This document shows positions 16,572 to 39,016 of a stretch of 64,000 nt of DNA, piece after piece. Numbering within the stretch: the stretch's first letter is position 1; each line of letters starts with the position of its first letter. The notes below the pieces were generated by a model that was not told the origin of the DNA, searched no databases, and saw only the letters and a list, made by a program, of their open reading frames with translations. The position numbers were made by a program, and so were the translations under genes. Origin of the DNA: Acidobacteriaceae bacterium (GTDB taxonomy: Bacteria; Acidobacteriota; Terriglobia; Terriglobales; Acidobacteriaceae). The stretch spans positions 1 to 64,000 of the forward strand of contig JANXZM010000098.1 of the NCBI GenBank assembly GCA_025355505.1, written 5' to 3'.

Positions 16572-17639
16572 TCACTTTCTGAAGTGCGGCAGGACTTCAT
16601 CGCCAAACAGTTTCGCTTGCCCAGTGCGATCGTCGCCCCAGATTTCGAGCATGATGTGAGTGCAACCAGCAGTGCGGTATTCTTCGATCTTCTGAATGCA
16701 CTCGTCAGGCGTGCCCGCGATGGGACAAACTTTGCGCAGCAATTCGTCACTGACGGCAAGCGCTGCGGCTTTGCGTCCGCCCTTTTCCATCGCGTCGGCA
16801 ACCGGCTGCAGCTCTTCAAAAGTAATGCCGGCGGATTCGAGCAACACGTCCGCGGAACCTTTAATGTTCTGCACTTTGTTGGCAAGATACATGGCAGCTT
16901 GCTCGCGCGCGCCTTCTTTTCCCTTTTTCGAATCGCGTCCGATGCTCCCGACGATCACACAGCCAAGGATCAGCTTGGAAGCGTCTTTGCCCGCTTTCGC
17001 CGCGCCCTCTTCCATATTCTTTTTCGAATACCGCACGAACGCGGGAGTGGTGATCGACGCCGTGAGCAATCCATCGCCGAGCGAACCACCCAACTTCTGC
17101 ATCGCGGGTCCAGTTCCGGCAACATACACAGGAGGAACTTTGCGCGATGTGTCCGCGTCCGACTTCAGCGGCGGAACGCTGGCGGCGAACACCTTGCCCC
17201 GATATTCGAATGCGTCACCCTTGAGCACGCCGCGAATGATCTCGATGCTTTCCCGCATCACGGTCGCAGGTCCAACTTTCTCGCCTTCCCCCTCGCCGAT
17301 CTCTTTCATGAAGATCTTCGACGCGCCGAGGCCCAGCAGAAAGCGGTCCCCAGCAAGATCCTGCATGACGCGCGCCTCCATCGCAATCTCGACAGGATGT
17401 CGCGTGTAGGGAGAAATAATTCCCCAGCCAAGATGAATGCGCTTCGTCTGGCTGGCGATGACGGCAAGAATCGCGGTCGAGGAACGCGCCTCGAACGAAT
17501 GCTTGCGCCACCACGGATAGGCTTCCGCAATCCAGAAGGTGTCGAAACCCGCATCCTCGCAGGCCTTGGCCATGGTTGCGGTTTCGTGAACGGGCTCCAT
17601 GCTGAGCTGAAGGACTCCAATGTTGAATGGGATGGTCAT
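16572..17639 (-). CDS. LLM-class F420/flavin-dependent oxidoreductase
   Basis: A 355-residue luciferase-like monooxygenase-fold protein. The N-terminal strand (FNIGVLQLSMEP), AEDAGFDTFWIAEAYPWW-like helix, and LGWGIISPYTRHP and LAGDRFLLGLGAS segments match the F420-dependent methylene-tetrahydromethanopterin-reductase-like group. Members use F420H2 or FMNH2 for hydride transfer or oxygenation. It is the last gene of the long minus-strand array. A complete F420 operon 17 kb away and a flavin reductase in the same array make either cofactor possible; F420 is my preference. Substrate unknown. Confidence 0.85.
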   Translation of the reverse strand: MTIPFNIGVLQLSMEPVHETATMAKACEDAGFDTFWIAEAYPWWRKHSFEARSSTAILAVIASQTKRIHLGWGIISPYTRHPVEIAMEARVMQDLAGDRFLLGLGASKIFMKEIGEGEGEKVGPATVMRESIEIIRGVLKGDAFEYRGKVFAASVPPLKSDADTSRKVPPVYVAGTGPAMQKLGGSLGDGLLTASITTPAFVRYSKKNMEEGAAKAGKDASKLILGCVIVGSIGRDSKKGKEGAREQAAMYLANKVQNIKGSADVLLESAGITFEELQPVADAMEKGGRKAAALAVSDELLRKVCPIAGTPDECIQKIEEYRTAGCTHIMLEIWGDDRTGQAKLFGDEVLPHFRK

Positions 17640-23274: not shown

Positions 23275-25767
23275 CTAAGAGCGCTTCTCCAACTTTACTA
23301 ACTGAGCGAGTTGTCCGCCTTCGCGATGCTTGAGCGAGCGGAAAATGCTGTCGGCGTTGTTAAAGGAGTCGTCGATAAAGATACCTTGCGAAAACAACGC
23401 GTCCTGCAGGGCCGCTGAAATCGTGTGCACTGGAGCCGCACCTCCTTCGCCCATGCCTTTCGCACCGCTGTAGCTGTGGGGAGAGGGCGTTGTGGTGTGG
23501 CCGTATTTGATCTTCGGAATATTCATGGAGGTGATGGGGGTGTAATCGCTGAAGGTGCTGGTCAGCATATTGCCGACGGCGTCATAGACACAGGTTTCCA
23601 TCAATGCCGCGCCGATGCCGTGCGCGGTTGCGCCATAGACCTGCCCTTCCACAATTGGCGGATTGATGACCGTGCCGCAATCGTCCACGGCCACGTAGTC
23701 GAGAATCTTCGGGACAAAAGTTTCGCGGTCCACTTCGACGATCGCGATGTGCAATTGCGACGCATAGGTCAGGGTGAGACTTCCGTATTTTGTTTTCGTG
23801 TCGGGAACCTTGAACGGCGCGCGCCATACGTAGCGGCAGTTGAGCGTGACATCGTACAGTTCGGGCGGGAGCACGGCGCTATTCACGTTGACGATGTTTG
23901 CGAGGCCCCAGTAGTTGATGGATTTTCCGCTGCTCTTTGCCTTGATCTCGGGGCCTTGCTGGCCGACTCCGAATTCGAGATCGTCTTCTTTCGTTCCGAG
24001 AATAAAGGCGGCCAGGCGCTTCATTTCGGTTTTGAGTTTCTGCGCGGCGCCGTGAACCGCCGACAAACCAGAAACCGCAAATTGGCTGGCGTACGTTCCC
24101 GACATTCCGGTGTGCACGTTGCGCTCAGTATCGAAGCCCGTACGCACGGTGATCAGATCGGGATGGATGTTGAGTACGTCGGCGACGACTTGTGCCGCGG
24201 TGGTTTCATGTCCCTGACCTTGCGGACACGAACCGACGGCCACGACCACTTCGCCGTAAATATCGAGTTTGCAGTTTGCGCCCTGCGAGTTGCCGGAGAA
24301 AGGCGCGTAAGGGTTAATGATCTGCGACTGGCCGAAGTTATTCGTTCCGGAATCAAGCGTGGTGCCGATGCCAATCCCGAGCATGCGGCCTTCTTTGCGT
24401 GCCTCGGCCTGCTTCTTTTTCCAGTCGTCCCAACCGATCAGATATTTCGCGACTTCGAGCATTTTCGGATAGTTGCCGGAATCGTAGACGCAGCCATTGG
24501 GCGTGGTGTAGGGGAACTCTTCCGGGCGAATATAGTTGCGCAGGCGCATTGTGTCGGGTGCAATGCCGATTTCGTGGGCGCAGATGTCGACGACGCGCTC
24601 CAGGAACCAGAGGTGCTGCATGCGGGAGTATCCGCGATTGGGGCCGACCGGACACTTATTGGTGACCGCCTGCCAGAAATCGATGCGAGCATTCTTGAAA
24701 CGATACACGCCACAGAAAACTTGCGACCAGATCACGCAGCCCAAAGGCTCATAGCGCGGGTAGGCGCCGCAGTCGTCGATGTGGCGCGAGTCGATGGCGG
24801 TGATGACGCCGTTTTTATCGAGGGCTACGCGCGTGTTGCGGAAGGTGCGCTCGTTGCCGTGGGCACTTGAAACCATGTGCTCGGAGCGGGTTTCGACCCA
24901 CTTAATGGGCCGCCCGCCCGCCTTTTTCGAGGCCAGAGCACAGACGGCCATCTGCGGGTAACTTGTGATCTTGATGCCGAAGCTGCCTCCGATATCGAAA
25001 GTCTGAACCCGAATCTTGTCGATATGAATGCCCAGGTGAGCCGCCAGGAATTGAATCGCGAATGCCGGGAACGAGTTATTGCACCAATAGTAGATGCGGT
25101 CGTCTTTGGGATTCCATTCGGCGATCACGACATTGTTTTCGAGCGGCGTCGACGAAAAGCGATGGAAGTGCAAGCGGTCGATGTCGACCACATACGCCGC
25201 TTCCTTGAAGGCGCGTTCAACATCGCCGTATTCCCACACGCCGTTCCAGACTCGGTTCGTGCCGGCTTCTTCGTGGAGGATGCTGCGATCGGTGAGGGCC
25301 TGTTCAACTTCGACGACAGGTTCGAGCGGTTCGTACTCGACCTGAACGAGTTCGGCGGCATCGTCGGCGAGGCTCGAGGATTCGGCGACTACGGCGGCAA
25401 CCGGCTCACCCTGGTAAAGGACTTTGCCCACGGCCATGGGGAAGTCGCGAATCTTCTGCGCTTGGTCCGGACCGATTTGGATGAAAGGCTGCGTTTGCGC
25501 GACAATTTCTTTGCCGGTAATCGCACACACTACGCCGGGCAGCGCCTCGGCAGCGGAGGTGTCGACGCTGACAATACGCGCGTGCGCATAGGGAGAGCGC
25601 ACAAAGCGGAGATAGAGCATCTCGCGAAGCTTGATGTCGTCGGCGAACTTGCCCCGGCCGCGCAATAGACGGTCTTCTTCTTTGCGAGGGAGCGCGGCGC
25701 CGACCCAGGGTCCGCTACCGTGTTTTTTTTCGTCTTCAGCCACGATACTTTGAGCCTCCGCAAACAT
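23275..25767 (-). CDS. Molybdenum hydroxylase large subunit (xanthine dehydrogenase family)
   Basis: An 830-residue molybdopterin-binding subunit with the a/b hammerhead domain (PWVGAALPRKEEDRLLRGRG start) and catalytic Glu774 in KGMGEGGAAP. The active-site loop reads VGPNRGYSRMQHLWFLE, not the AYxCSFR of form-I CO dehydrogenase, so CO oxidation is unlikely despite Cox-like partners. With the FeS, FAD and CoxG-like genes upstream, it forms a complete hydroxylase that inserts water-derived oxygen at an electron-poor carbon of a heterocycle or aldehyde. Electrons leave through FeS and FAD. Probably cytoplasmic: no signal peptide seen. Confidence 0.9.
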   Translation of the reverse strand: MFAEAQSIVAEDEKKHGSGPWVGAALPRKEEDRLLRGRGKFADDIKLREMLYLRFVRSPYAHARIVSVDTSAAEALPGVVCAITGKEIVAQTQPFIQIGPDQAQKIRDFPMAVGKVLYQGEPVAAVVAESSSLADDAAELVQVEYEPLEPVVEVEQALTDRSILHEEAGTNRVWNGVWEYGDVERAFKEAAYVVDIDRLHFHRFSSTPLENNVVIAEWNPKDDRIYYWCNNSFPAFAIQFLAAHLGIHIDKIRVQTFDIGGSFGIKITSYPQMAVCALASKKAGGRPIKWVETRSEHMVSSAHGNERTFRNTRVALDKNGVITAIDSRHIDDCGAYPRYEPLGCVIWSQVFCGVYRFKNARIDFWQAVTNKCPVGPNRGYSRMQHLWFLERVVDICAHEIGIAPDTMRLRNYIRPEEFPYTTPNGCVYDSGNYPKMLEVAKYLIGWDDWKKKQAEARKEGRMLGIGIGTTLDSGTNNFGQSQIINPYAPFSGNSQGANCKLDIYGEVVVAVGSCPQGQGHETTAAQVVADVLNIHPDLITVRTGFDTERNVHTGMSGTYASQFAVSGLSAVHGAAQKLKTEMKRLAAFILGTKEDDLEFGVGQQGPEIKAKSSGKSINYWGLANIVNVNSAVLPPELYDVTLNCRYVWRAPFKVPDTKTKYGSLTLTYASQLHIAIVEVDRETFVPKILDYVAVDDCGTVINPPIVEGQVYGATAHGIGAALMETCVYDAVGNMLTSTFSDYTPITSMNIPKIKYGHTTTPSPHSYSGAKGMGEGGAAPVHTISAALQDALFSQGIFIDDSFNNADSIFRSLKHREGGQLAQLVKLEKRS

Positions 25768-25798: not shown

Positions 25799-26251
25799 CT
25801 ATGCCAGAGCCGCTTGCAACCCGTCTATCAATTTCTGAATCTGTTTCTGGCCTAGAGGTTCGAGCAGGCCACCGGCTACGGATGCCAGGCGGCCGAAGAT
25901 CTGCGCTTCACCCTGCCAGTTCACTTTGGTTCCGAGTGCGGTTCCGTCGGCGATCGGTGCCAGGTCAAACCCAGCGACCATAGTGACATTTCCGCCGACG
26001 ACGGCTCCCTGTCCTTTGTATTGAGCGCGGCGCGGCCGATCGGCCTCGGCCAGTTCCATCTTCACGTCCGCGCTGCCTTTGATGTAGGAAATGCCCACGT
26101 TCAACTTGACGGCAAAATGCGTCGGATCCTGCACTGACAGGCTTTGAAACTCCGGGAGCAGCGGCGCAAACCGATTGGGATCGGTGAGGAAGTCGTAAAC
26201 CTCCTCGGGTTTTTTCTTGACTTCGAATTCGCCGGAAAATTTGATCGCCAT
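25799..26251 (-). CDS. CoxG-like SRPBCC protein
   Basis: A 150-residue START/Bet v1-fold protein of the carbon-monoxide-dehydrogenase subunit G family: FSGEFEVKKKPEEVYDFLTDPNRFAPLLPEF at the start (read as two shorter blocks around residues 4-34) and a C-terminal amphipathic helix. CoxG-type proteins recruit or anchor molybdenum hydroxylases at the membrane. It lies 2 bases before the FeS-subunit gene end and directly upstream of the large subunit, so it most likely serves this hydroxylase. Confidence 0.85.
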   Translation of the reverse strand: MAIKFSGEFEVKKKPEEVYDFLTDPNRFAPLLPEFQSLSVQDPTHFAVKLNVGISYIKGSADVKMELAEADRPRRAQYKGQGAVVGGNVTMVAGFDLAPIADGTALGTKVNWQGEAQIFGRLASVAGGLLEPLGQKQIQKLIDGLQAALA

Positions 26252-26252
26252 C

Positions 26253-26753
26253 TCAGGCTCCCTTCATGTTCCGGCCAGCGAGCTCAATGGCCTTGAAGAT
26301 GTTCATGTAACCGGTGCAGCGGCAGGTGTTGCCGGCGATCGCTTTTCGAATCTCTTTTTCGCTTGGCTCAGGATTCCCGGAAAGCAATTGATGAGTGGAG
26401 AGCATCAGACCGGGCGTGCAGTAGCCGCACTGCAGGCCGTACGAATCGCCAAAGGCTTTTTGAATGGGATGAAGCTTGCCGTCTTTTTCCAGGCCCTCGA
26501 CGGTGGTGATCTCCGATCCGTCAGCTTGCACCGCAAACATGGTGCAGGACTTTACCGCCAGTCCGTTCATCAGCACGGTGCACGCGCCGCAGTACGTGGT
26601 GTCGCAACCGACGTGCGTGCCGGTGAGGTCGCATGCCTCGCGCAGGAATTCAACCAGCAACATACGCGGCTCGACCTGCCGCGCGTAGAGCTTGCCGTTT
26701 ACGTTGATATTGATTTTGACGGCGATTTTTTCCACGGTTGCGGTTTCAGGCAT
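26253..26753 (-). CDS. Molybdenum hydroxylase [2Fe-2S] subunit
   Basis: 166 residues from ATG 26753, which overlaps the FAD-subunit stop by a few bases; an earlier in-frame start would add 16 residues inside that gene. The N-terminal plant-type ferredoxin motif is GCDTTYCGACTV..C, and the C-terminal helical cluster motif is CGYCTPG...CRCTGY. It carries electrons from the molybdenum centre to FAD. The length matches CoxS/small-subunit proteins. Confidence 0.92.
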   Translation of the reverse strand: MPETATVEKIAVKININVNGKLYARQVEPRMLLVEFLREACDLTGTHVGCDTTYCGACTVLMNGLAVKSCTMFAVQADGSEITTVEGLEKDGKLHPIQKAFGDSYGLQCGYCTPGLMLSTHQLLSGNPEPSEKEIRKAIAGNTCRCTGYMNIFKAIELAGRNMKGA

Positions 26754-27639
26754 AGAGATGGGCCCCTTCGACTTGTTCACCGCGAGCACGGCGCACGGCA
26801 ATCTGAATGGCGCGCTTCACCAGTGCGACGACGAGTTGGCGCTTATATTCGGCGGATCCGCGCATGTCAGTCTGGGGATCGGCGGCAGCGCGAGCGGCTT
26901 CGGCGGCGGTGGCGATTGTCTTGTCGCTCAGACTGTTTCCGCGGAGTGCCGTCTCGGCCTCGGTCGCTCGGATCGCCGTCAGTCCAACGCAGCCCAGAGC
27001 AATGGCGGCATCCTGGCAGACGTCGCCCGCCAATGTAAGTTGTACAGCCGCACTAGCACTGGGATACACGGGCGCACTCCGCTTGAATGCGAGATAGGCG
27101 CCGCCGCTGCCCTGGGGCGGAATTTTCACTTCAACTTCGGTTACAAGTTCGTCGTGAGCTAGCGCGGTTGTGTAGGCGTCTTTGATGAAGTCTCTCAATT
27201 GGATGGTGCGCGCGCCGCTCGGCCCTAGACAGTGAACTATGGTGTCGAGCGTGATCAAGGCATTGGTCCAATCGCCGCTTGGATCGGCTTCAGCGAGCGA
27301 TCCGCCGATGGTGCCCCGGTTGCGCACTTGCACGTCGGCGATTCCGGCGGCGCAGTCATGCAGGACTGGAATCTTTCTGGCGAGCGCGGAGTGCTCGATT
27401 TCGGCGTGGCGGGTCATTGCTCCGAAATGAAGCGCGCCCGAATCCTCCTTAATAAAGGAGGTGCCCGGGATGAAGTTCAAGTCCACCAGGTGCTCAGGAT
27501 TGGCGAAGCGAAGCTTTAGCAACGGAATCAGACTCTGCCCGCCGGCGAGGAATTTTGCACCTTCTCCGAGTTGGCCGAGCATGGAGACCGCTTCTTCCAG
27601 CGATCCCGCCCGGTGATAGTGAAATGATCGGGGATACAT
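26746..27639 (-). CDS. Molybdenum hydroxylase FAD subunit
   Basis: A 297-residue CoxM-like medium subunit. FAD-binding motifs AGGQSLIPLLKLR and TIGGSLAEADPSGDW are intact, and a CO-dehydrogenase flavoprotein C-terminal domain follows. It passes electrons from FAD to an external acceptor, usually a quinone or cytochrome chain. The gene precedes the FeS subunit with overlapping ends. The membrane proteins encoded just upstream are candidates for the acceptor. Confidence 0.92.
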   Translation of the reverse strand: MYPRSFHYHRAGSLEEAVSMLGQLGEGAKFLAGGQSLIPLLKLRFANPEHLVDLNFIPGTSFIKEDSGALHFGAMTRHAEIEHSALARKIPVLHDCAAGIADVQVRNRGTIGGSLAEADPSGDWTNALITLDTIVHCLGPSGARTIQLRDFIKDAYTTALAHDELVTEVEVKIPPQGSGGAYLAFKRSAPVYPSASAAVQLTLAGDVCQDAAIALGCVGLTAIRATEAETALRGNSLSDKTIATAAEAARAAADPQTDMRGSAEYKRQLVVALVKRAIQIAVRRARGEQVEGAHLYA

Positions 27640-27675: not shown

Positions 27676-28170
27676 CTAAGCCGCAGTGCGCGGCCGGGCA
27701 AATCCCCAAGCCGTTGCCGTCAAACCGGCGATGACCAGCCCAGAGCTAACCACGGCCAGAGCTTTCAAACCCATGGCACCATGATGATACGTCTGAAGAA
27801 TGATCGCCAGCGGAAATAGCGCACTGCCCGCGAGCAGCGAAAATGCCACCAGTTGCCGAATTCCTTCGCTGAAGTTCACCCGTTGGAAAATTACACCCAG
27901 CACGATCATGAGCATGGCGAGCCCAATCCAGTGGGAGTGAGCATCCACCTGGCGAACATAATCGTATTTGGTATCGCCATACTGTTCGAGCGCCGCCTGC
28001 GACTGTGCAAGATTACGGCTTGCCGCTGCGGCGAAAGACTGGGCTAGCGAACCACCCATGTGATCGAGCGTCTGGTGCTCAACGAAGAGGGCATATTGCA
28101 AGCCATAGAGCATGCCGAAGGCGGCAAGAGCAATCCCGCCAAAGATTAGAAGTTTGCGCGATCCGGTCAC
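27676..28170 (-). CDS. Unknown four-helix membrane protein with HxH motif
   Basis: A 164-residue protein with four predicted transmembrane segments (about 8-28, 79-97, 105-125, 134-156). After the first helix comes His32; the second helix opens with DAHSHWIG (His78, His80). The whole protein is one copy of a unit that occurs twice in the 390-residue protein encoded immediately upstream, with which it overlaps by 4 bases. I do not recognise the family. The paired His at helix ends could bind heme or a metal. Placed between flavin reductase and molybdenum hydroxylase genes, it may act in electron transfer; this is inference. Confidence 0.75.
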   Translation of the reverse strand: MTGSRKLLIFGGIALAAFGMLYGLQYALFVEHQTLDHMGGSLAQSFAAAASRNLAQSQAALEQYGDTKYDYVRQVDAHSHWIGLAMLMIVLGVIFQRVNFSEGIRQLVAFSLLAGSALFPLAIILQTYHHGAMGLKALAVVSSGLVIAGLTATAWGFARPRTAA

Positions 28171-29339
28171 AGTGCACCCTCCGCGGCGTCGCTCTCAACA
28201 TAGTTCTCAACATCGAGGCCCCCGGAATAGCGCAAGATGCCGACCAGCATTCCAACCAGGCCAACGAGGACCATCAGGCCGCCGACGTCGGCGATGCCTC
28301 CGGCCAGCAATCCGAGTTTCAGCTCCAAGAGCACGAACACGGGCAGAATCACCGAGCCTCCAAGCAGCAACTTCACCCACCGACGCTTCCATTTTTCAGA
28401 GAGGAACACGAAGGGCTGGACGAACGATAGCAGCATCGCCAGCAGACCGAACTCGATGATGTGCGAGTGCGCAGCGATGTTCACGGCGCGTGCGGCGGCC
28501 AACCCGCCAAAGTTATTGACCTCGGTTGTGACAACGTCGAGATTTCCCGAGGTGGCAGCGTTGATCAAACGTTGTAGAATCTCCGTCTCCATCCGCTCGT
28601 GCTCGTACAACAGAGTGCCGGCATAATACGCGCCGTGCAGGAAGCCGAGTAAGACGAGAATCGTGCCACCGGTCAAGAGTGCGCGACGCGGCATGCTGTC
28701 GCCCGAGCGTTCGAGAGCGGGGAGTTCAGGCTCGCTGAGTTGGCGGCTGCGAAGGTATTGCCGGAAACCCCACGCTTGGACGATGAGAACGAGGATCAGC
28801 AAGGCTCCGGCGGAATCGGCCAGCACGCTCGCCCAGCCGATGGCGGTAAACGGGCTGCCGGTGAGGCCGACGTAATGAATCAGAAAAATGCCGACTGGCA
28901 AAAAAACTCCGCCGGCAATAAACAGAGTCGCCAGAGATTTTTTCGTCTGCCGCGAGAGCGCGATGTACGGCTGCACCAGCGCCAGCAGGAGCGCCAGATA
29001 CCCGGCGCCAATCATGTGGACGTGCGCATCCACCTTGGTGCCACGATCTTCGAGGACGTTGCCAAGATGACTGAACACATCATTTACCGCCGCGGCATTT
29101 CCGGCAGCGACGGCGCGAGATGCTGCGATGAGCGCTTCGCCTTGCAGCGCGGCATTTTGGTGAAGGATGAAAACGGCAAAGATGTCGCCGAAGAGAAGGC
29201 CGGCGGCGATTAGAGCAATGCCGCCGAATATGTAGAGGCGGCGTGCGCTCATGGGCGCGAAATGGGGCGCCAAAGCAAGCGCAGGCTTCGCGGGCGCGGA
29301 ACTGGCACGGTCCGGGAATGACTTGGGAGTCGCTGGCAT
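28167..29339 (-). CDS. Unknown membrane protein, internal duplication with HxH motifs
   Basis: A 390-residue protein (or 361 if started at ATG 29252). It starts at ATG 29339, which overlaps the flavin-reductase stop as TAATG. Two homologous halves, about 31-195 and 216-370, each hold four hydrophobic helices, a His after helix 1 (His60, His247) and an HxH at helix 2 (106/108 in DAHVHMIG, 291/293 in AAHSHIIE) followed by a LLxxVQP segment. The 164-residue neighbour is a third unit. I know no named family for it. Function unknown; a heme- or quinone-linked membrane partner is one possibility. Confidence 0.75.
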   Translation of the reverse strand: MPATPKSFPDRASSAPAKPALALAPHFAPMSARRLYIFGGIALIAAGLLFGDIFAVFILHQNAALQGEALIAASRAVAAGNAAAVNDVFSHLGNVLEDRGTKVDAHVHMIGAGYLALLLALVQPYIALSRQTKKSLATLFIAGGVFLPVGIFLIHYVGLTGSPFTAIGWASVLADSAGALLILVLIVQAWGFRQYLRSRQLSEPELPALERSGDSMPRRALLTGGTILVLLGFLHGAYYAGTLLYEHERMETEILQRLINAATSGNLDVVTTEVNNFGGLAAARAVNIAAHSHIIEFGLLAMLLSFVQPFVFLSEKWKRRWVKLLLGGSVILPVFVLLELKLGLLAGGIADVGGLMVLVGLVGMLVGILRYSGGLDVENYVESDAAEGAL

Positions 29340-29833
29340 TAGTGGCCCACGGGTTCTATGTCGCGGTACTGGCTGCGGAAATACAGCAGTGGCTCCCCAT
29401 CTCGCACCAGGACCTCTTCCACTTCCGCGATGAAGATGGTGTGGTCACCCGCGGTCTCGGTCGAGTGCAGCCGGCATTCGAGGTACGCGAGAGCACCTTG
29501 CAGCACGGGCGTGCCTTGCGCGGTGCGATCGAAGCGGGCGCCCGCGGCCTCGGGATGCTGATGGGTCTCCGCGGAGCGCGCGTAATATTCCGAGATGGTC
29601 TGCTGATCATTGCGCAGCACGTTCACTCCAAATCTTTTTCGGGCATGCAGATGAGCATGTGTCCGCGCCCGGTGATCCACACAAACCAGCACCAGCACCG
29701 GGTCGAGTGAGACTGCGGTGAAAGCATTCGCCGTCATGCCGTGGACCTTGCCTTCCTGGTCGACGGTGATGACCGTGACCCCGGTTGCGAAACATCCCAT
29801 GGCCTGGCGGAAATCGCTCGCGGTAAGGCTCAT
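29339..29833 (-). CDS. Flavin reductase (HpaC/FMN-binding split barrel)
   Basis: 164 residues from ATG 29833; the longer frame from 29917 adds 28 residues that run into the repeat-like end of the receptor gene. MGCFATGVTVITV, GMTANAFTAVSLDP and KRFGVNVL are typical of NAD(P)H:flavin oxidoreductases that feed reduced FMN/FAD to two-component monooxygenases. Its partner may be the LLM oxidoreductase at the end of the array. The gene is translationally coupled to the membrane-protein gene downstream. Confidence 0.88.
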   Translation of the reverse strand: MSLTASDFRQAMGCFATGVTVITVDQEGKVHGMTANAFTAVSLDPVLVLVCVDHRARTHAHLHARKRFGVNVLRNDQQTISEYYARSAETHQHPEAAGARFDRTAQGTPVLQGALAYLECRLHSTETAGDHTIFIAEVEEVLVRDGEPLLYFRSQYRDIEPVGH

Positions 29834-29918
29834 GCGGAAACCTGCGGGCCATTGCTTTGAAAGGCGTTTTGAATGGCCGGACGGGCCACGAGAGCAGCCC
29901 GTCCGGTAAGTGACCACG

Positions 29919-32900
29919 CTACCACGTCAAACGCAGCGCCAGCTGAATCTGACGCGGGTTGAATACTGCGCTGGGCGTTCCGTAGCTCGGGTTGGGCGAA
30001 CCCTCCCGAAAAAATGCCGGCGCTCCAAAGCAACCAGGAGCACCCGGATCCTTGGGGCAGAAGTCCGCTGCTCCATAGCTTGTGTTGGAGTAGCGCACGT
30101 TGACGGTGTTCAGCAAGTTGAAGGCTTCCGCCAGGAATTGGACATGCAACTTTTCATAAAGTGGAAAGGTGCGTTCCAGTCGAACATCGACGGTGTGCAG
30201 TGAATCTCCCTTGTATGTGTTGCGTGGTTCGTTGCCGACCCGGTCATTGTTTCCGAAGACGTCGCCATTGGCGTCAAAGCCGGCATATTTGGTGAAGAAC
30301 TGCGGAGATTGCAGGGTAAGGATCGTGCTGAAACTGAAATCGCGCGCGATCACGTTCCAGCTCTTGGGGCTGGAGAAGATAGCGTTACCGACGAAACGAT
30401 GCCGGGCATCGTCGGCGGAACTGGCGCGCTCCTGACGGAAGTTGAGGCTGTCCTGCGGAATCAGCACGAAGCTGGGATTGGGGCCGTTGTCGATGGAATG
30501 CGAATAGGTGTAGCTGATGTTAAACGAAAAATTGTTAGCCATTCGCTTGCTCATGTTGATGAGCAGGCCATCGTAAACAGAGTCCCAACTGGAACGGGCC
30601 TCGAAGAAGACGCTGTATTGGGGGTCGCGGAAACCGGGAACCCCGTTGATGTGGGGCACGCCCGGAATAATCATTACCGCGGGATACTGGTCGCCGTTGG
30701 CGCAATTAGGGGGAGGGATCGGCACCCCACCCGGATTCAGGTTCGAAGCGAAGTCGAAGTAAACGTTCTTGCAGCTTGCCTGGCCTTTGGAGTTGAAGAC
30801 CTGTACCGTACCGCTGTGGTCGGGCTGATTCACATTGTAGAAGCTGCCGAGGTGTACTCCTCGCAAATGGATTCCGGTGATGCTCAACAGCGAGTCTTTG
30901 AAGGGCTGGAATTCCAACGAGGCGCTGGTCTGAATGCCGTAGGGGTTCTGGCTGTTCTGATCGAACCGCACGATAGTCGCGTCCTGCAGGAAGCCGCAAC
31001 CATCCAGGAATCCGCCCGGGCAGAAACCTGCGGGCGTTCCGTTGGGGTAAGTGGCGCCCGGCCCCAACAAAGCGTTAAGCGCGAAATTGGTGATGAATGG
31101 GGAACTGGCAAAACTAAAAAGGCCAGTCGTCGCATTCAAGCCGTTTTCAAATGGACGATTCGGGTAGGTGGATTGTCCGCCGCAGGACGGCGCCTGGCAC
31201 ATGAGCAGGGGCGATGGAATAATGCCGTGGAACAGCCCCATGCCGGCGCGGAATACGACGTTGCGGGAAGTTCCCAGGCTGTAAGCCAGCCCCACCCGCG
31301 GATCAACGTTCTTCCACTGCGTATTCAGAACGCGGGAAGGCCACTTTTCGAATTCCCAGCGCGCCCCGAAATTCACGGTCAGATTCTGGGAGGCGCGCCA
31401 CTTATCCTGAAGGTAGAAGCCGGTGTAGGTGTGGTCGAGCGTCGCCGAGGCTTGATTACGGATCGCCTGCGGGATCGCGCCGCCTTGGTACACTGCCGGT
31501 CCTCCCGCCAGAGATGTCTCGTTGAAAAGCGGAGTCGTAGCTGTGCTAAAGCGTTCGAAAAAAATCACGAATGGATCAGGACAGATCGCATCCGGGCCGC
31601 ACGCAGCGCCATCTGTGCCGAGAAAAGCGGGGAGGTTTGCGAAGTCCGCCTCGAACGGATAGAACAGGGGGAAGGATTCGTAGGTGCTGACCCGATCAAA
31701 ATTACCGCCAAAACTGACGGTGTGGCTCGACAGGTTATGGGTCATGTTGTCGACTAACTCGAAGCGCGACTCGTGGTAAATGTCCGGGTTCCCGCGATTG
31801 ACGCCGACTGCGAAGGTATTGGAGACCTCCAGATGTGGCTGGGTGGAAACCACCGGGAAATCGAAGTTGCGGTGGGCATACTGCATACGCAGTTCGTTCA
31901 CCCACGATGGGGAAATCACCGTCGTCAAGCCACCGGCGAGCGACTGGTCGCGAATGTTGTTGTTCTTGAATGCAGAGGGCAGGTCGAAACCATTGTTGAG
32001 AGGCGACTGGTTGGTCAAGCGACCGTTGTTGATGAAATAGCGGACGTACAGGTTATTGCGGCTGAAGTTCTGATCCAGCCTGATCAGAGCGTTGTCCGTG
32101 TTCCCGTTGCGCAGCACAAATAGGTTTTCGGCAGGCAGACCGTAGACCGTCGTCTTGACGTTATTAATCGCCGCAATGTTGCTCAGCACGGTCGAATTGT
32201 AAGTTGGCGATTCGGTACGTCTTTGAGCTTCGTAATTGGCAAAGATGAATGTCTTGTCTTTCTTGATCGGTCCGCCGATAGCGCCGCCAAACTGATTTTG
32301 GCGCAGCACATTGAAGCCCGGCGCGGAAAGAATACTTCTCGCGTCCAGTTTGTTATTGCGCAGATAGTCGTAAAGCGAACCGTGCACGTTGTTGGTGCCA
32401 CCTTTGGTGATGATGTTCACGATGCCGGCGGTGGCTCGTCCAAATTCCGTGGTGTAGTCGGTGTTGATGACGCGAAACTCCTGGACCGATTCCTGTGGCG
32501 GCGTGCCCCGCTGGATGCCCGAGGCGGTTGAAATGTCGTCGGCGCCGTCTACCGCAATGAAATTGTAGTGAATGTTCTGGCCGGCGAAGGAAAGCTTTGT
32601 AACCGGTTCGACGATAACGTCGGTGCTGCCCGAGGTCGTGTTTCCGATGGTGATACCGGGCGCGAGCAACGCAAAATCGATAAACTCCCGCCCGTTGACC
32701 GGAAGGTTTTCAATTTTTTGCTGATCAATCACCGAACTCACCATGGTTCGAGTGGGCTCGGCAACTTCGCCCACGTCCTGCACTTCGACCTGGGTTTGAA
32801 CCTGGCCGAGAGTCAGCGCGAAATCCACATTGCCCGACGCACCAATATCCAGGTGAATCTTCTTGGCGGACTTTTGGAAACCCTGCTTTTCGACATTGAC

Positions 32901-33209
32901 GGTGTAATCGCCCGCTGGAAGTCCGCCGATCTGATATTCACCAACCGCGCTGGCCGTGACGGAGCGCTTCAAACCGGTGGCCGTATTGAGCACCGTCACC
33001 GAGGCATCCGGAATCACGGCGCCGGTGGTGTCGGAGATGCGACCCTGGAGAGTGCTGTTAACGGTCTGGGCTGCCAACCAACTTGGCACGGCCAAGGACA
33101 GTGCCAGGAACAGAAGACAAATGACCGCTCCCAGGCAGCGATGGAACAACGAGGACTGAACGGAGCCGGGCGTCCCGGCATAGGATTTCACAACATATTG
33201 AACGGCCAT
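29919..33209 (-). CDS. TonB-dependent receptor, Oar-like
   Basis: A 1096-residue outer-membrane protein. After a signal-anchor region (hydrophobic about 28-48), a carboxypeptidase-regulatory-like domain follows (TLQGRISDTTGAVIPDASV, ca. 51-140), then the plug with NLPVNGREFIDFALLAPG and a long beta-barrel ending in LALRLTW, with C-terminal aromatic Trp. This architecture is abundant in Acidobacteriota and is linked to uptake of large or scarce substrates. Located second in the GntR-headed array, it probably imports the pathway substrate or a precursor. GAGGGG precedes the ATG. Confidence 0.9.
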   Translation of the reverse strand: MAVQYVVKSYAGTPGSVQSSLFHRCLGAVICLLFLALSLAVPSWLAAQTVNSTLQGRISDTTGAVIPDASVTVLNTATGLKRSVTASAVGEYQIGGLPAGDYTVNVEKQGFQKSAKKIHLDIGASGNVDFALTLGQVQTQVEVQDVGEVAEPTRTMVSSVIDQQKIENLPVNGREFIDFALLAPGITIGNTTSGSTDVIVEPVTKLSFAGQNIHYNFIAVDGADDISTASGIQRGTPPQESVQEFRVINTDYTTEFGRATAGIVNIITKGGTNNVHGSLYDYLRNNKLDARSILSAPGFNVLRQNQFGGAIGGPIKKDKTFIFANYEAQRRTESPTYNSTVLSNIAAINNVKTTVYGLPAENLFVLRNGNTDNALIRLDQNFSRNNLYVRYFINNGRLTNQSPLNNGFDLPSAFKNNNIRDQSLAGGLTTVISPSWVNELRMQYAHRNFDFPVVSTQPHLEVSNTFAVGVNRGNPDIYHESRFELVDNMTHNLSSHTVSFGGNFDRVSTYESFPLFYPFEADFANLPAFLGTDGAACGPDAICPDPFVIFFERFSTATTPLFNETSLAGGPAVYQGGAIPQAIRNQASATLDHTYTGFYLQDKWRASQNLTVNFGARWEFEKWPSRVLNTQWKNVDPRVGLAYSLGTSRNVVFRAGMGLFHGIIPSPLLMCQAPSCGGQSTYPNRPFENGLNATTGLFSFASSPFITNFALNALLGPGATYPNGTPAGFCPGGFLDGCGFLQDATIVRFDQNSQNPYGIQTSASLEFQPFKDSLLSITGIHLRGVHLGSFYNVNQPDHSGTVQVFNSKGQASCKNVYFDFASNLNPGGVPIPPPNCANGDQYPAVMIIPGVPHINGVPGFRDPQYSVFFEARSSWDSVYDGLLINMSKRMANNFSFNISYTYSHSIDNGPNPSFVLIPQDSLNFRQERASSADDARHRFVGNAIFSSPKSWNVIARDFSFSTILTLQSPQFFTKYAGFDANGDVFGNNDRVGNEPRNTYKGDSLHTVDVRLERTFPLYEKLHVQFLAEAFNLLNTVNVRYSNTSYGAADFCPKDPGAPGCFGAPAFFREGSPNPSYGTPSAVFNPRQIQLALRLTW

Positions 33210-33249: not shown

Positions 33250-33933
33250 CTACTGAGCTGTCCGCACCACTCGTGCCGCGCGCGCGTGCATGATCTTGGT
33301 CAGCCTGGATTCGGAATCATCGAGATGCTGCTCCAGTACAGTGGCACACTGCTTAAGCTTTCCGGTACTGAGCAATCGGCACATTTTCCGGTGGACAGGA
33401 ATCAGTGCACCGGGATTGTCATGACTGCGGTCCACCAGCACCATGCCGATACGCAGTTCACCGATCATGTTTTTATAGAATGAATCCAGGCGCTTGTTGC
33501 CGTGAAAGCGGATCAGCAGGCTGTGAAAATGAAGGTCGTGACTGACGGCGTGGGACCAGTTCCGGTCGCCGACGGCTAGTTCGTATTGCTCGACCGCGCT
33601 GCGGAGCTCTTGCAACAAATCCGGGTTCGGAGAGCGCGCCGCAAGCACGGCGGGCAACTCCAGCATCCGGCGCAACTGGTAGATCTCCTGCACATCGCGC
33701 AAAGAGAGTTGAGAGACCGCCGCACCCCGATGGAGGCTGCGTCGCAGGAGACCCTCGAGTGACAGGATCCGGATTGCTTCGCGCATGGTGTTGCGGGAAA
33801 CGCCCAGAGAAGAAGCCAGGGGCAATTCCTGAACCTGGGTGCCGGGGCGGAACTCGCCTTCAAGAATGCGCTGGCGGAGAAGAGCGGCCACCTGATCCGC
33901 CACACTTACGCGGTTAATCTGCGTTCGATCCAT
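33250..33933 (-). CDS. GntR-family regulator (FadR/FCD subfamily)
   Basis: A 227-residue regulator. The N-terminal winged helix has the signature LASSLGVSRNTMREAIRILSLEGL (residues about 41-64), and the C-terminal FCD helical domain has candidate metal/ligand residues in SHDLHFH, PVHRKM and EQHLDD. FCD regulators usually repress catabolic operons until a carboxylate effector binds. It is the first gene of the minus-strand array, 40 bases before the receptor, and diverges from cofG. A palindrome beside its own promoter is a likely operator. Confidence 0.92.
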   Translation of the reverse strand: MDRTQINRVSVADQVAALLRQRILEGEFRPGTQVQELPLASSLGVSRNTMREAIRILSLEGLLRRSLHRGAAVSQLSLRDVQEIYQLRRMLELPAVLAARSPNPDLLQELRSAVEQYELAVGDRNWSHAVSHDLHFHSLLIRFHGNKRLDSFYKNMIGELRIGMVLVDRSHDNPGALIPVHRKMCRLLSTGKLKQCATVLEQHLDDSESRLTKIMHARAARVVRTAQ

Positions 33934-34173: not shown

Positions 34174-35355
34174 ATGGCCACCTTTTCCCCAGATGCGCTG
34201 TTTGCGGCGGAGTTGGCGAGCGACGGCGCGAAGCCGATCTCTCGTGAAGCGGCTTGCCGGCTGCTGCAAGCGGACGACGAGATGCTGCCTTCCCTGCTTG
34301 CGGCGGCGCAAGTTGCGCGCGCGACGTTCAAAACGGGAGTCATCACGTATTCACGCAAGGTGTTTCTTCCCCTTACAAATCTTTGTCGCGACTACTGCGG
34401 CTACTGCACCTTCCGGCGCGATCCGGGCCAACCCGGTGCGCACACCATGACGCCGGACGAAGTGATGGAAGTTGTGCGCGCGGGAGAGCGCATGGGATGT
34501 ACCGAGGCGTTGTTCAGTTTGGGCGACAAGCCGGAACTGCTTTTCCCGCAGATGCGCGATACGCTGCGGCGCTTCGGATACAAATCCACGCTGCATTATC
34601 TGGAAGCAATGTGCGAGAAGGTGCTTCGAGAATCGAGCTTGCTGCCGCATCCGAATCCCGGGCTGATGAGCGCGGAATGGCTGGAACGGCTATCCCGCGT
34701 GGCTCCCAGCATGGGGCTCATGCTGGAGACGACCAGCACGCGCCTGCTCGCGAAAAACGCCGCTCATGACAATGCTCCCGACAAAGACCCAGCAAAGCGC
34801 CTGCGCGTAATTGAAGATGCGGGGCGGCAGAAAATTCCTTTTACCACGGGAATTCTGATCGGCATAGGGGAGACGCCGGAAGAGCGCGTGGACGCGCTGC
34901 TTGCGATCCGCGACTTACATGCGAGGTATGGGCACATTCAGGAAGTGATTGTGCAAAACTTCCGCGCCAAGAGTGGAACTCCGATGGCACATTGCCCCGA
35001 ACCGGGTCGCGGAGAAATGCTGCGCACGCTGGCCGTGGCGCGCCTCCTGATGCCGAAGATGAACATTCAAGCGCCGCCGAATCTTTCCGATCCGCACTAT
35101 GCCGATCTGCTCGACGGCGGCATCAATGATTGGGGCGGAGTTTCGCCGCTGACGCCGGATTTTATCAATCCGGAAATGCCGTGGCCGCATCTGGACCAAC
35201 TGCGACAGCGGACCGAAGCCAAAAGATTCGAGTTGCGCCAGAGATTGCCGGTTTATCCTGAGTTCGCGGAACAAGCGGCGGCCCACAGCGATTTGCTGGC
35301 GCAGCGACTGAGCGCCGCTGCAGACGCTGAAGGCTACGCGCGGAGGGCGGCATGA
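34174..35355 (+). CDS. cofG: FO synthase subunit CofG
   Basis: A 393-residue radical-SAM enzyme (7,8-didemethyl-8-hydroxy-5-deazariboflavin synthase subunit 1). The cluster motif is CRDYCGYC near residues 70-77, with downstream SLGDKPEL and GILIGIGET motifs. With CofH it makes FO, the deazaflavin chromophore of coenzyme F420. It is first in a six-gene operon; its TGA stop overlaps the cofD start as ATGA. CofG and CofH are separate here, unlike the fused FbiC of mycobacteria. Confidence 0.95.
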   Translation: MATFSPDALFAAELASDGAKPISREAACRLLQADDEMLPSLLAAAQVARATFKTGVITYSRKVFLPLTNLCRDYCGYCTFRRDPGQPGAHTMTPDEVMEVVRAGERMGCTEALFSLGDKPELLFPQMRDTLRRFGYKSTLHYLEAMCEKVLRESSLLPHPNPGLMSAEWLERLSRVAPSMGLMLETTSTRLLAKNAAHDNAPDKDPAKRLRVIEDAGRQKIPFTTGILIGIGETPEERVDALLAIRDLHARYGHIQEVIVQNFRAKSGTPMAHCPEPGRGEMLRTLAVARLLMPKMNIQAPPNLSDPHYADLLDGGINDWGGVSPLTPDFINPEMPWPHLDQLRQRTEAKRFELRQRLPVYPEFAEQAAAHSDLLAQRLSAAADAEGYARRAA

Positions 35356-36311
35356 TCACGGTTCTCACCGGCGGCACGGGCGGCGCCAAGTTCGTGGATG
35401 GACTGCGGCAGATCGTTCGTCCGGAAGAGCTGACGATCATCGTGAATACCGGCGACGACCTGCTGTGGTGGGGATTGTACGTTTCGCCCGATTTGGATTC
35501 CATCACGTACATGCTGGCTGGAAAGCTGAGCCAGGAGCGCGGCTGGGGCGTAAAGGGTGACACGTTTTTTTGCCTGCATGCCATGCGGCAGATGGGACAG
35601 CCGACGTGGTTTCACGCCGGCGATCGCGATCTGGCCACGCATATCTTTCGCTCGAAGCTGCTTGCCGACGGCAAGACGCTTAGTGAAGCCACATCGGAAA
35701 TCGCGGCCAGTCTTGGAATCCAGGCTCGAGTCTTGCCGATGAGCAATTCGCGCGTGGAGACACGGGTGTTGACTCCGTCGGGAGACTTGAGCTTCGAAGA
35801 ATATTTCGTCCAGCGCTGGTACCAGGATCCAGTGGAATCGGTTCGGTTCGCCGGCGCCTCGGATGCGGAACCGGCGCCGGGAGTGATCGAGGCGATCCGC
35901 TCGGCGGATCTTGTGCTGTTGGCGCCGAGTAATCCGGTGACCAGCATTGGGCCGATTCTCGCCGTTCCGGGAATTCGCGAAGCGCTGCGCGCAAGTTGCG
36001 CCCGCATTGCGGCCGTGAGCCCGATTGTGGGAGGGGCCGCCGTCACCGGGCCTGCGGGAGCGCTCATGGCGGCGCAGGGCTTCGCCGTTTCGATTGCCGG
36101 CGTTGCCGACTGCTATCACGACTTCCTTGATCTGCTGGTAGTCGATTCCGAGGACGCGCCGGCTGCCGAAGAGTTGCGCAAAACCGGCATGCGTGTGCAT
36201 TGCACCGCGACCATCATGCACAAATACGAAGACAGAATCGCGCTGGCAAAGAGCACCCTGGACGCGGCGACGCAACCCCCGTCCGCCCAGGCCGCGGTGG
36301 AGCAGGCATGA
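35352..36311 (+). CDS. cofD: 2-phospho-L-lactate (or PEP) transferase CofD
   Basis: 319 residues. The N-terminal LTGGTGGAKFVDGL nucleotide/FO-binding loop and VNTGDDLLWWGLYVSPDLDS are diagnostic of CofD/FbiA. It transfers a phospholactyl or phosphoenolpyruvyl group from the GDP adduct made by CofC to FO, giving F420-0 or its dehydro form. Start and stop overlap with both neighbours (ATGA), so translation is coupled. Whether lactate, pyruvate or glycerate donor is used cannot be told by eye. Confidence 0.95.
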   Translation: MITVLTGGTGGAKFVDGLRQIVRPEELTIIVNTGDDLLWWGLYVSPDLDSITYMLAGKLSQERGWGVKGDTFFCLHAMRQMGQPTWFHAGDRDLATHIFRSKLLADGKTLSEATSEIAASLGIQARVLPMSNSRVETRVLTPSGDLSFEEYFVQRWYQDPVESVRFAGASDAEPAPGVIEAIRSADLVLLAPSNPVTSIGPILAVPGIREALRASCARIAAVSPIVGGAAVTGPAGALMAAQGFAVSIAGVADCYHDFLDLLVVDSEDAPAAEELRKTGMRVHCTATIMHKYEDRIALAKSTLDAATQPPSAQAAVEQA

Positions 36312-36949
36312 TTCTGGTTCCCGTTAAAAACTTCATCGACGCCAAGCAGCGGCTGTCTTCTGTTTTGAGTCCGGAAGAGCGTTTCGCGCTGGCGCAGGCA
36401 ATGTGCGAGGACGTGCTGCAAGCGCTGGCACACTGGCAAAGCCGGCCTGCCGTTGCGGTGGTGACGAGTGATTCGTTTGCGCGCGACTTGGCCGAGCGTT
36501 TCAATTTCGATGTGGTTGCCGACGACAACTCCGGAGAGACCAGCGCCATCGAAATGGCAACGGCACTGTGCCGAGGGCGCGGAGCGTCCAGCACCTTGGT
36601 GGTACCGGCCGATATTCCTTTGATCGACAGTGCGGAACTGCAGAAGATCGTGGATTGCGCTCCTCCAGGTGGCACAGTGCTGGTGCCGGACGCGGCGGGG
36701 CGCGGCACGAATGCAGCCTGGCGATCTCCGAGTGATTTGTTTCCGCTTCGCTTCGGTAACGACAGCTTTCTGCCGCACCTGGCTGCTGCGAAAGCAACAG
36801 GACTGCCTTGCGTTGTGCTCGAACTGCCGGGGATTGCGCGGGATGTCGATCGTCCCGAAGATCTCCGCTTACTGGCGGCTGCCAGTGGAGAGCGGCGATC
36901 GCAGAAGCTGGTGCGAAGCTGGAACCTCAGCCGGCGGAATCAGGCCTAA
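36308..36949 (+). CDS. cofC: Phospholactate/PEP guanylyltransferase CofC
   Basis: A 213-residue protein starting at ATG 36308, which overlaps the cofD stop as ATGA. Longer in-frame starts lie inside cofD and are rejected. MILVPVKNFIDAKQRLS, VVTSDSFARDLAE and VVPADIPLID match the MobA-like nucleotidyltransferase fold of CofC/FbiD. It activates 2-phospholactate or phosphoenolpyruvate with GTP for CofD. Confidence 0.92.
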   Translation: MILVPVKNFIDAKQRLSSVLSPEERFALAQAMCEDVLQALAHWQSRPAVAVVTSDSFARDLAERFNFDVVADDNSGETSAIEMATALCRGRGASSTLVVPADIPLIDSAELQKIVDCAPPGGTVLVPDAAGRGTNAAWRSPSDLFPLRFGNDSFLPHLAAAKATGLPCVVLELPGIARDVDRPEDLRLLAAASGERRSQKLVRSWNLSRRNQA

Positions 36950-36950
36950 C

Positions 36951-37757
36951 ATGGGCAGGTCTAGCGCGGGATCCGGCATCGGCAAGCGCGCGGCTGGGGA
37001 AGTTCGGATTCTTCCGGTCGCCGTCAGTGGAGAAATCCGCGCCGGCGAATCGCTATGCGCGAGAGTGTTGGCGGCAACGCGAAGCTTGGGGCTGCGCTTT
37101 CAGGATGGCGACATTCTGGTGGTGAAGCACAAAATTGTTTCGAAGTCGGAAGGTGCGCTGGTGGCGCTTGATGAGATTCGGCCCTCGGCGGCTTCACGAG
37201 TGTGGGCTCGACGCTACGGGCTCGACGCACGCGTCAGTGAGTTGGCGGTGCGTGAGAGTCGGCGAATCGTGCGGCGCAAGCGCGGTGTGCTGATCACCGA
37301 GACCAGGCATGGGTTCGTTTGCGCCAACAGTGGCGTGGATGTGTCGAACGTAGATGGCGGGCGGCACGCGGTGTTGTTGCCGGCGAATCCGGATCGTTCC
37401 GCGGCGAAGTTGCGGCGGGAGTTGAAGAAGCAGCTTGGGATCGAGATCGCGGTCATCGTCAGCGACAGTTTCGGGCGCCCGTGGCGCGAAGGCTTGACGG
37501 AGGTGGCGATCGGCGTCGCCGGGATGCGGCCTCTGGTCGACTACCGCGGACGCCGCGATCCGCACGGCTACTCGCTGCACGCGACGGTGGACGCGGTCGC
37601 CGACGAACTGGCTTGTGCGGCGGGACTGGTCTGCGGCAAGCTGGCAGGTACTCCGGCGTGCATCATTCGAGGCTACTCTTACTGCCGCGAAAACCGCCGA
37701 GGAAGCGGTGGGGCGCGGGAAATGATTCGGTCCGCGAAGAACGATCTTTTTCGGTAA
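36951..37757 (+). CDS. cofE: F420-0:gamma-L-glutamate ligase CofE
   Basis: A 268-residue ligase from ATG 36951, one base after the cofC stop. It has the family blocks GDILVVKHKIVSKSEG, ANSGVDVSNV, VIVSDSFGRPWREG and GVAGM, which form the GTP- and metal-binding centre. It adds glutamates to the F420 side chain. The extra nitroreductase-like C-terminal domain of mycobacterial FbiB is absent, so this is a stand-alone CofE. Its N-terminal 15 residues are variable and the exact start could be slightly later. Confidence 0.93.
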   Translation: MGRSSAGSGIGKRAAGEVRILPVAVSGEIRAGESLCARVLAATRSLGLRFQDGDILVVKHKIVSKSEGALVALDEIRPSAASRVWARRYGLDARVSELAVRESRRIVRRKRGVLITETRHGFVCANSGVDVSNVDGGRHAVLLPANPDRSAAKLRRELKKQLGIEIAVIVSDSFGRPWREGLTEVAIGVAGMRPLVDYRGRRDPHGYSLHATVDAVADELACAAGLVCGKLAGTPACIIRGYSYCRENRRGSGGAREMIRSAKNDLFR

Positions 37758-37777
37758 AAGTTCGATAGGAGAATGTT

Positions 37778-39016
37778 ATGACCTGGCAAGCTTCAGAACT
37801 CGAGCAATTCCCCGCGTTGACCTGGGACCAGATCGCACCACAAGCTTCGGTGGCGATTCGTAGCGCATTGGAACGCGTGCTGCAAACGCAAGACGGAGCA
37901 TGTCTGCAAGACGAGGAACGCTACGCCTTGGCGAACTGCGACGGTGCGGACTTATTCGCCCTGCTGGTGGCCGCGGATACACTTCGGCGCGACCTGGTCG
38001 GCAACATCGTCAGTTACGTGGTGAACCGCAATATCAATTTCACGAACATCTGTTTCGTGGGGTGCAAATTTTGCGCGTTCAGCCGCGGGCCGCGCGAGGC
38101 CGACTCCTATTTTCATTCGCTCGAAGACATGGGCCGCAAAGCGAAAGAAGCGTGGGAGCTGGGAGCGACCGAAGTCTGCATTCAGGGCGGACTGCCGCAC
38201 GGTCTGCCGCCATTTTATTATCGCGACATCTTGCGCGCCGTGAAGAATGCGGTGCCGGGTATGCACATCCACGCGTTTTCTCCCATGGAAATTGTGTATG
38301 GCGTGGAACTGACCGGCATGACTTTGCGCGACTATCTAATGATGTTGCGCGATAACGGACTGGACACGCTGCCAGGCACCGCGGCCGAGATTCTGGACGA
38401 CGAAGTGCGTCATGTACTGTCGCGCAATAAACTTTCGTCGGCGCAATGGCAAGAGGTGATCCGCACGGCGCACTCGTGTGGAATCCCCAGCACTTCGACG
38501 CTGATGTACGGACACATGGAAACGCCTGGCCACTGGGTGCGGCAGCTGTCTCTGTTCCGGCAAATTCAGACGGAGACCGGCGGCTTCACCGAGTTCGTGC
38601 CGCTTGGCTTTGTGCACCAGAACACGCTTTTGTTCCAGCAGGGGCTGGCGCGCACGGGACCGACGCTCGCCGAACACCTCAAGATTCATGCGCTGGCCAG
38701 AATACTGCTCGCGGGCTCGATTCATAACATCCAGGTCTCGTGGGTGAAACTGAACCGCAAACTTTCGCAGCTTTGCCTGCACGCGGGCGCCAACGACTAC
38801 GGCGGGACGCTGATGGAAGAAAACATATCGCGCGAGGCCGGAGCCACCGCGGGCCAGTACACCAGTCCAGAAGATTTTCAGGCGCTAATTCTGGAGATGG
38901 GCCGCATTCCGGCAGAGCGCAACACAAAATACTCGCGAATGAAGATCAAGCTGTCCCCCGAATCGTTTTCTGCCGAGGTTTTTTCTGAACGTGCGCTGGT
39001 TCCGGAGTTCGCATGA
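37778..39016 (+). CDS. cofH: FO synthase subunit CofH
   Basis: 412 residues; radical-SAM motif CFVGCKFC after NRNINFTNI, then the GATEVCIQGGLPHGL and HAFSPMEI segments characteristic of CofH. It joins tyrosine to 5-amino-6-ribitylaminouracil, the substrate then processed by CofG. A clear AGGAG lies 8 bases before the ATG. Stop overlaps the npdG start as ATGA. Confidence 0.95.
   Translation: MTWQASELEQFPALTWDQIAPQASVAIRSALERVLQTQDGACLQDEERYALANCDGADLFALLVAADTLRRDLVGNIVSYVVNRNINFTNICFVGCKFCAFSRGPREADSYFHSLEDMGRKAKEAWELGATEVCIQGGLPHGLPPFYYRDILRAVKNAVPGMHIHAFSPMEIVYGVELTGMTLRDYLMMLRDNGLDTLPGTAAEILDDEVRHVLSRNKLSSAQWQEVIRTAHSCGIPSTSTLMYGHMETPGHWVRQLSLFRQIQTETGGFTEFVPLGFVHQNTLLFQQGLARTGPTLAEHLKIHALARILLAGSIHNIQVSWVKLNRKLSQLCLHAGANDYGGTLMEENISREAGATAGQYTSPEDFQALILEMGRIPAERNTKYSRMKIKLSPESFSAEVFSERALVPEFA

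Follow-up and report, generated by a model that had tools for sequence, protein, structure and literature searches.

Paired membrane protein genes of Acidobacteriota encode three HxH four-helix units distantly related to styrene oxide isomerase and predicted to fold like heme-copper oxidase subunit I

Styrene oxide isomerase (SOI, StyC; PDB 8PNU, 8PNV) is a homotrimer of four-helix subunits with heme at the subunit interfaces. Experiments have shown that its His58, or His57 in R. opacus, binds heme b at the trimer interface, and both termini are cytosolic (PMC11374702, PMC12502698). The heme acts as a non-redox Lewis acid, and a DALI search with SOI ended without substantial structural similarities (PMC11374702). 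Heme A synthase (CtaA/Cox15) consists of two pseudosymmetric bundles of four helices each, eight in all, and has a His-ligated heme (PMC7327177). Subunit I of the heme-copper oxidases (HCOs) and NO reductases is built from three bundles that total 12 helices, and [AG]HxH sits on the second helix of a bundle.

Here we describe two neighbouring genes, A and B, in a 64,000-nucleotide stretch of DNA from an Acidobacteriaceae bacterium (GenBank assembly GCA_025355505.1, contig JANXZM010000098.1, positions 1 to 64,000), the whole of which we call the window. Table 1 gives their positions and those of their neighbours. Gene B has a GTG start and shares 4 nt with the end of gene A; the start of gene A in turn shares 1 nt with the flavin reductase gene.

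Table 1. Genes A and B and the genes around them (positions are those of the window)
Feature	Position	Strand	Remarks
Luciferase-like monooxygenase	16572..17639	(-)	far end of the cluster; possibly F420- or FMN-dependent
CoxL-like molybdopterin subunit	23275..25767	(-)	carries GPNRGYSR
CoxG family protein	25799..26251	(-)	PF06240
CoxS-like [2Fe-2S] subunit	26253..26801	(-)	Pfam/NCBIfam scan
CoxM-like FAD subunit, molybdenum hydroxylase	26746..27639	(-)	Pfam/NCBIfam scan
Gene B, 164 aa	27676..28170	(-)	unit 3; HxH H78/H80; helix-1 His H32
Gene A, 390 aa	28167..29339	(-)	unit 1 (~aa 30-205) and unit 2 (~aa 212-385), four helices each; HxH H106/H108 and H291/H293; helix-1 His H60 and H247
Flavin reductase	29339..29917	(-)	PF01613; best NCBIfam score StyB-like, under cut-off
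TonB-dependent-receptor-like protein	29919..33209	(-)	name from sequence reading
GntR/FCD regulator	33250..33933	(-)	Pfam scan

The original prediction, made by reading the DNA, held that the gene A protein is an internal duplication, that the gene B protein is a third copy of the same unit, and that they may represent a new family. Smith-Waterman comparison gave z values of 27.6 for units 1 and 2, 26.3 for units 1 and 3, and 16.5 for units 2 and 3, with none of 500 shuffles attaining the score, and unit-against-unit profile-profile alignment (hhalign) gave E values of 4e-34, 8e-29 and 1e-23. In a family tree of 36 units and 14 outside relatives, units 1, 2 and 3 each formed a single clade with 95-97% bootstrap support. 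The three approaches thus agree that gene A contains the same unit twice over by duplication and that gene B is homologous to both copies; because each unit forms its own clade, the triplication is older than the diversification of the family. No Pfam or NCBIfam model names either product when single sequences are searched, the top rows being chance matches; single sequences of A and B found no match in the PDB, and the gene B profile found chance rows only. No model among Pfam, NCBIfam and the PDB sequences therefore covers A or B, as the claim of novelty had supposed. They are a previously unnamed family, kin to SOI in sequence and to the HCOs in predicted fold, and belong to neither by the tests made.

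Genes A and/or B were present in 14 of the 61 relatives examined; named genomes account for 47 loci, and these are almost all metagenome assemblies of Acidobacteriota, one being labelled Gammaproteobacteria. In a single relative, an Acidobacteriaceae metagenome assembly (G022, locus L026, 9956-11695), A and B form one uninterrupted frame with a short linker and encode a single 12-helix protein, which shows that the three units can make up one chain. At another locus (L014, genome G012), gene B is intact and gene A is reduced to a short C-terminal remnant.

Each unit had been thought to keep one histidine after helix 1 and an HxH at helix 2. The HxH proved invariant among aligned homologues in all three units (H106 and H108, 38/38; H291 and H293, 38/38; H78 and H80, 40/40). 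The helix-1 histidine is equally constant in units 1 and 3 (H60, 38/38; H32, 40/40) and is kept in 31 of 38 homologues in unit 2 (H247), so this part of the motif did not hold throughout. Its placement also needs correction: in the AlphaFold2 model of A, helices 1 and 2 of each unit are continuous and about 45 residues long, which would put this histidine inside helix 1, near its exit from the membrane. H155 of gene A is conserved in 36 of 38 homologues, and H129/H130 of gene B are variable. The N-terminus and the helix 2-3 loops carry 26 K/R against 12 D/E, and the hairpins 10 K/R against 18 D/E; these charges indicate an N-in topology, in which the HxH would lie near the periplasmic side.

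Profile searches pointed to SOI as the closest characterised relative in sequence. It was the top match of the gene A profile against all PDB sequences, at an E value of 0.57. A combined profile of 130 sequences, comprising the three units and a single-unit family described below, matched a SOI profile of just five sequences with 88% probability (E 2.8e-6); the score was 44 against 16 for the reversed control, which had a probability of 0.5%. The probability falls to 63% without the single-unit family, and the individual unit profiles of the first alignment reached 0.1-4%. AHxH aligns on the AH58S of SOI without gaps, the first histidine of HxH taking the position of His58. Counting ungapped from that residue, the site of Asn64, which positions the substrate in SOI, holds Ala112, Phe297 and Leu84 in units 1-3; the alignment of helix 3, with the catalytic Tyr103/Asn99 region, is gapped. 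We reject identity with an ordinary styrene oxide isomerase because Asn64 is not conserved.

Like SOI, the A/B pair is built of four-helix units with cytosolic termini by prediction and lies next to a StyB-type flavin reductase gene, and its three units are comparable with the three subunits of the homotrimer. In contrast, SOI has one gene, one histidine and an open sixth heme site, whereas the two genes of A/B encode three units that have diverged, all of them with HxH and none with the conserved Asn64. The expectation that the histidine spacing suits a heme or metal gains from the coincidence of HxH with the SOI heme ligand and from the oxidase-like predicted fold; the redox role attached to it does not, because homology to a protein whose heme is a Lewis acid implies no redox function.

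Structure prediction matched A to HCO subunit I. The AlphaFold2 model of A (pLDDT 86.8, pTM 0.82), with four helices in each unit, superposes in VIA-align on cbb3 subunit I with Z 20.1 and 4.4 Å over 271 residues, the chance best Z for helical models being about 14 according to the tool's note. All of the best 50 matches listed were oxidases or NO reductases; with cbb3 CcoN (3MK7) and cNOR (4XYD), eight helices superpose at Z 19-20. Foldseek with the same model gave no match at E < 0.001. SOI was not among the structure-search matches listed, which are dominated by oxidases. Heme A synthase, which also consists of four-helix bundles but has two where A/B has three, was not among the best 50 listed for A.

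The L026 fusion was folded on an in-register subset of the alignment picked by trial (a mixed A+B alignment had misplaced A rows) and gave pLDDT 86.7 and pTM 0.84. Of its best 25 Foldseek matches, 23 were oxidases or NO reductases, but with an rmsd of about 24 Å. In VIA-align, the superposition on most HCOs covers mainly units 1 and 2, across the chain range of the whole of subunit I. The residue ranges suggest that unit 1 corresponds to the first oxidase bundle and unit 2 to the third, so that the units probably follow one another around the ring in a different order than in the HCOs. Overall, a subunit-I-like fold of A is well supported by the models, and A/B would share with these enzymes the 12 helices, the three bundles and the [AG]HxH on the second helix of a bundle.

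A/B is nevertheless not an oxidase. The COX1 model PF00115 matched neither A nor B at E up to 1, whereas three canonical oxidase genes of the same genome matched it, and no unit has the conserved His-His of the CuB/FeB ligand set (a TM6 His and a TM7 His-His beside the TM10 HxH); lacking both the CuB ligands and the COX1 match, this identity was rejected. A further difference is that A/B repeats HxH in all three units. Canonical oxidases of the same genera contain the look-alike VVAHFHYVMVGG or VVGHSHLGLLGF, and their TM10 HxH is presumably a heme-ligand motif. Against HCO unit III the combined profile scored 24.6 (probability 7%), with HxH on HxH; units I and II and the reversed controls scored 11-15, giving no signal for I and II. 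The profile-level likeness to unit III is suggestive only, and the resemblance to the HCOs is a structural one.

A wider search of the phylum revealed, in 14 of 297 genomes, an unnamed single-unit family of 130-180 aa with the motif LAHAHG (L080-L093 and L124-L137; Acidobacteriota). Its profile matches each of units 1-3 at 94-96% probability, and it shares the conserved HxH at helix 2. Unlike A/B, it has one unit per gene, lacks a long hairpin over the aligned region and has an octaheme partner: in 11 of the 14 loci it directly adjoins a gene of about 600 aa with eight CxxCH, which lies elsewhere within the locus in two more. Pfam recognised multiheme cytochrome c domains in both octaheme proteins tested and had no model for the one single-unit member scanned. 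With one unit per gene, the protein would be a homo-oligomer. Coming from a separate family, the octaheme partnership speaks for reading the HxH unit as redox-active.

The gene order in the window is GntR, TonB-receptor-like gene, flavin reductase, A, B, CoxM, CoxS, CoxG and CoxL, followed by PanE, M24, M20, M24, PanE and the luciferase-like monooxygenase; A and B do lie between flavin reductase and molybdenum hydroxylase genes, as first described. Despite its CoxMSGL likeness, the hydroxylase is probably not a CO dehydrogenase. We rejected that identity because CoxL has GPNRGYSR and lacks AYRCSFR, which we take to be the active-site motif of true CO dehydrogenases.

Of the relatives with enough flank, 35 of 38 loci have a TonB-receptor-like gene upstream of A/B, and in 30 of 36 the molybdenum hydroxylase, with CoxM downstream, adjoins A/B. 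In 22 of 40 relatives, a member of the luciferase-like monooxygenase Pfam family is encoded just upstream of A. Whole-ORF clustering placed a flavin reductase upstream in 12 of the 40 loci; the true number is higher, since tblastn detected copies that this clustering overlooked. Six loci lack the hydroxylase and have other enzymes instead. In L044 and L045, a molybdopterin oxidoreductase with ferredoxin-like and NrfD subunits stands beside A/B; L060 has a salicylyl-CoA 5-hydroxylase family enzyme, a benzoate-CoA ligase family protein and tryptophan 2,3-dioxygenase, and L043 has genes homologous to that cluster together with an aldehyde dehydrogenase. An FAD monooxygenase adjoins A/B in L047 and L051, and L047 also encodes an old-yellow-enzyme-type protein and a class-V aminotransferase that is weakly kynureninase-like. 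The neighbours in L043, L047, L051 and L060 suggest a link to aromatic amino acid catabolism.

These exceptional loci carry different enzymes, implying that A/B is not tied to a single partner but goes with several kinds of oxidative catabolic cluster. The position of A/B had been taken to suggest an electron acceptor; that role is tentative, with six loci lacking the hydroxylase and a non-redox heme in SOI, the nearest characterised relative. Moreover, CoxG-like proteins elsewhere tether quinone-reducing enzymes to the membrane (PMC11962113), so the molybdenum hydroxylase may need no further acceptor.

The reading that we favour, with a probability of about 0.5, is that A and B together form a 12-helix, pseudo-threefold heme b membrane protein, with bis-His hemes between its units, that transfers electrons between the quinone pool and oxidoreductases. 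The three homologous four-helix units would surround a pseudo-threefold axis in one membrane protein, the architecture of the SOI homotrimer and of HCO subunit I. Its N-terminus would be cytosolic, helices 1 and 2 of each unit would extend as a periplasmic hairpin, and the HxH on helix 2 would lie near the periplasmic face. The first HxH histidine, the counterpart of SOI His58, would bind heme b; the second, two residues on and on the opposite side of the helix, would face the adjacent interface. Because residues i and i+2 point in roughly opposite directions and there are three HxH helices, each interface could receive one histidine from either neighbouring unit, making room for up to three bis-His, six-coordinate hemes; in SOI, by contrast, the sixth site is left free for the substrate. 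Heme binding is likely. Such a ring of six-coordinate hemes would be suited to electron transfer, most likely linking the quinone pool with the oxidoreductases that the catabolic cluster encodes, and A/B would be an electron carrier with variable partners.

The SOI profile match could instead mean that A/B is a heme enzyme, a three-unit SOI relative acting on an aromatic intermediate, whose ferric heme would carry out an epoxide isomerisation, a rearrangement or an oxygenation on the product of the cluster's flavin-dependent monooxygenase before the molybdenum hydroxylase oxidises it. The surroundings fit: the StyB-like flavin reductase gene stands in front of A, an order also seen for StyB and StyC in R. 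oxybenzonivorans, a luciferase-like monooxygenase often lies directly upstream of A, and other loci fall in probable aromatic clusters that include UbiD, FAD monooxygenase and tryptophan 2,3-dioxygenase. We nonetheless consider this unlikely. Asn64, which is important to SOI activity, is replaced in all three units, the second invariant histidine would shut the open heme site, and the single-unit relatives pair with octaheme cytochromes.

Multi-His four-helix membrane units can also hold metals, and the invariant helix-1 histidine of units 1 and 3 could join such a site. The histidines might then bind non-heme iron, copper or zinc, or serve a heme or metal carrier, the oxidase-like fold being mere similarity. 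That is quite improbable in view of the HxH sitting on the SOI heme ligand and of its likeness to the TM10 HxH of canonical oxidases in the same genera. Less probable again, and in our judgement very improbable, is that A and B have no cofactor and serve in structure or assembly, for example as a membrane platform for the cluster enzymes. The long periplasmic hairpins might dock partners and the neighbouring enzymes are diverse, but a ligand-free account is hard to square with an HxH that is invariant in every unit despite about 50% sequence divergence.

If the bis-His heme reading is true, A/B is a new kind of membrane heme protein in the catabolic clusters of soil Acidobacteriota. Beyond this, A/B, its single-unit kin and SOI offer testable sequences for the question of how the three-bundle core of respiratory oxidases and NO reductases originated. 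The A/B units are still recognisably related, retain HxH, and are mostly split over two genes and fused once. One might speculate, though we find it rather doubtful, that A/B is an extant, triplicated representative of a superfamily of [AG]HxH four-helix proteins, that it carries a ring of three bis-His hemes, and that the oxidase fold was born by fusion of a homotrimeric heme b protein. That superfamily would comprise the single-unit proteins with octaheme partners, the SOI homotrimers, the 2+1 arrangement of A/B and HCO subunit I, with a different order of units in A/B. A literature search found no paper joining 'styrene oxide isomerase' with 'heme-copper', and nothing connecting both families. 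Given the outcome of the DALI search, SOI would gain a place in a wider superfamily if the link is true.

Finally, a run of F420 biosynthesis genes (34174-39732, plus strand) diverges from the A/B cluster in the window and is kept alongside it in many relatives. Its members are radical-SAM CofG-like, CofD, CofC, CofE and CofH genes and an F420-dependent NADP oxidoreductase.
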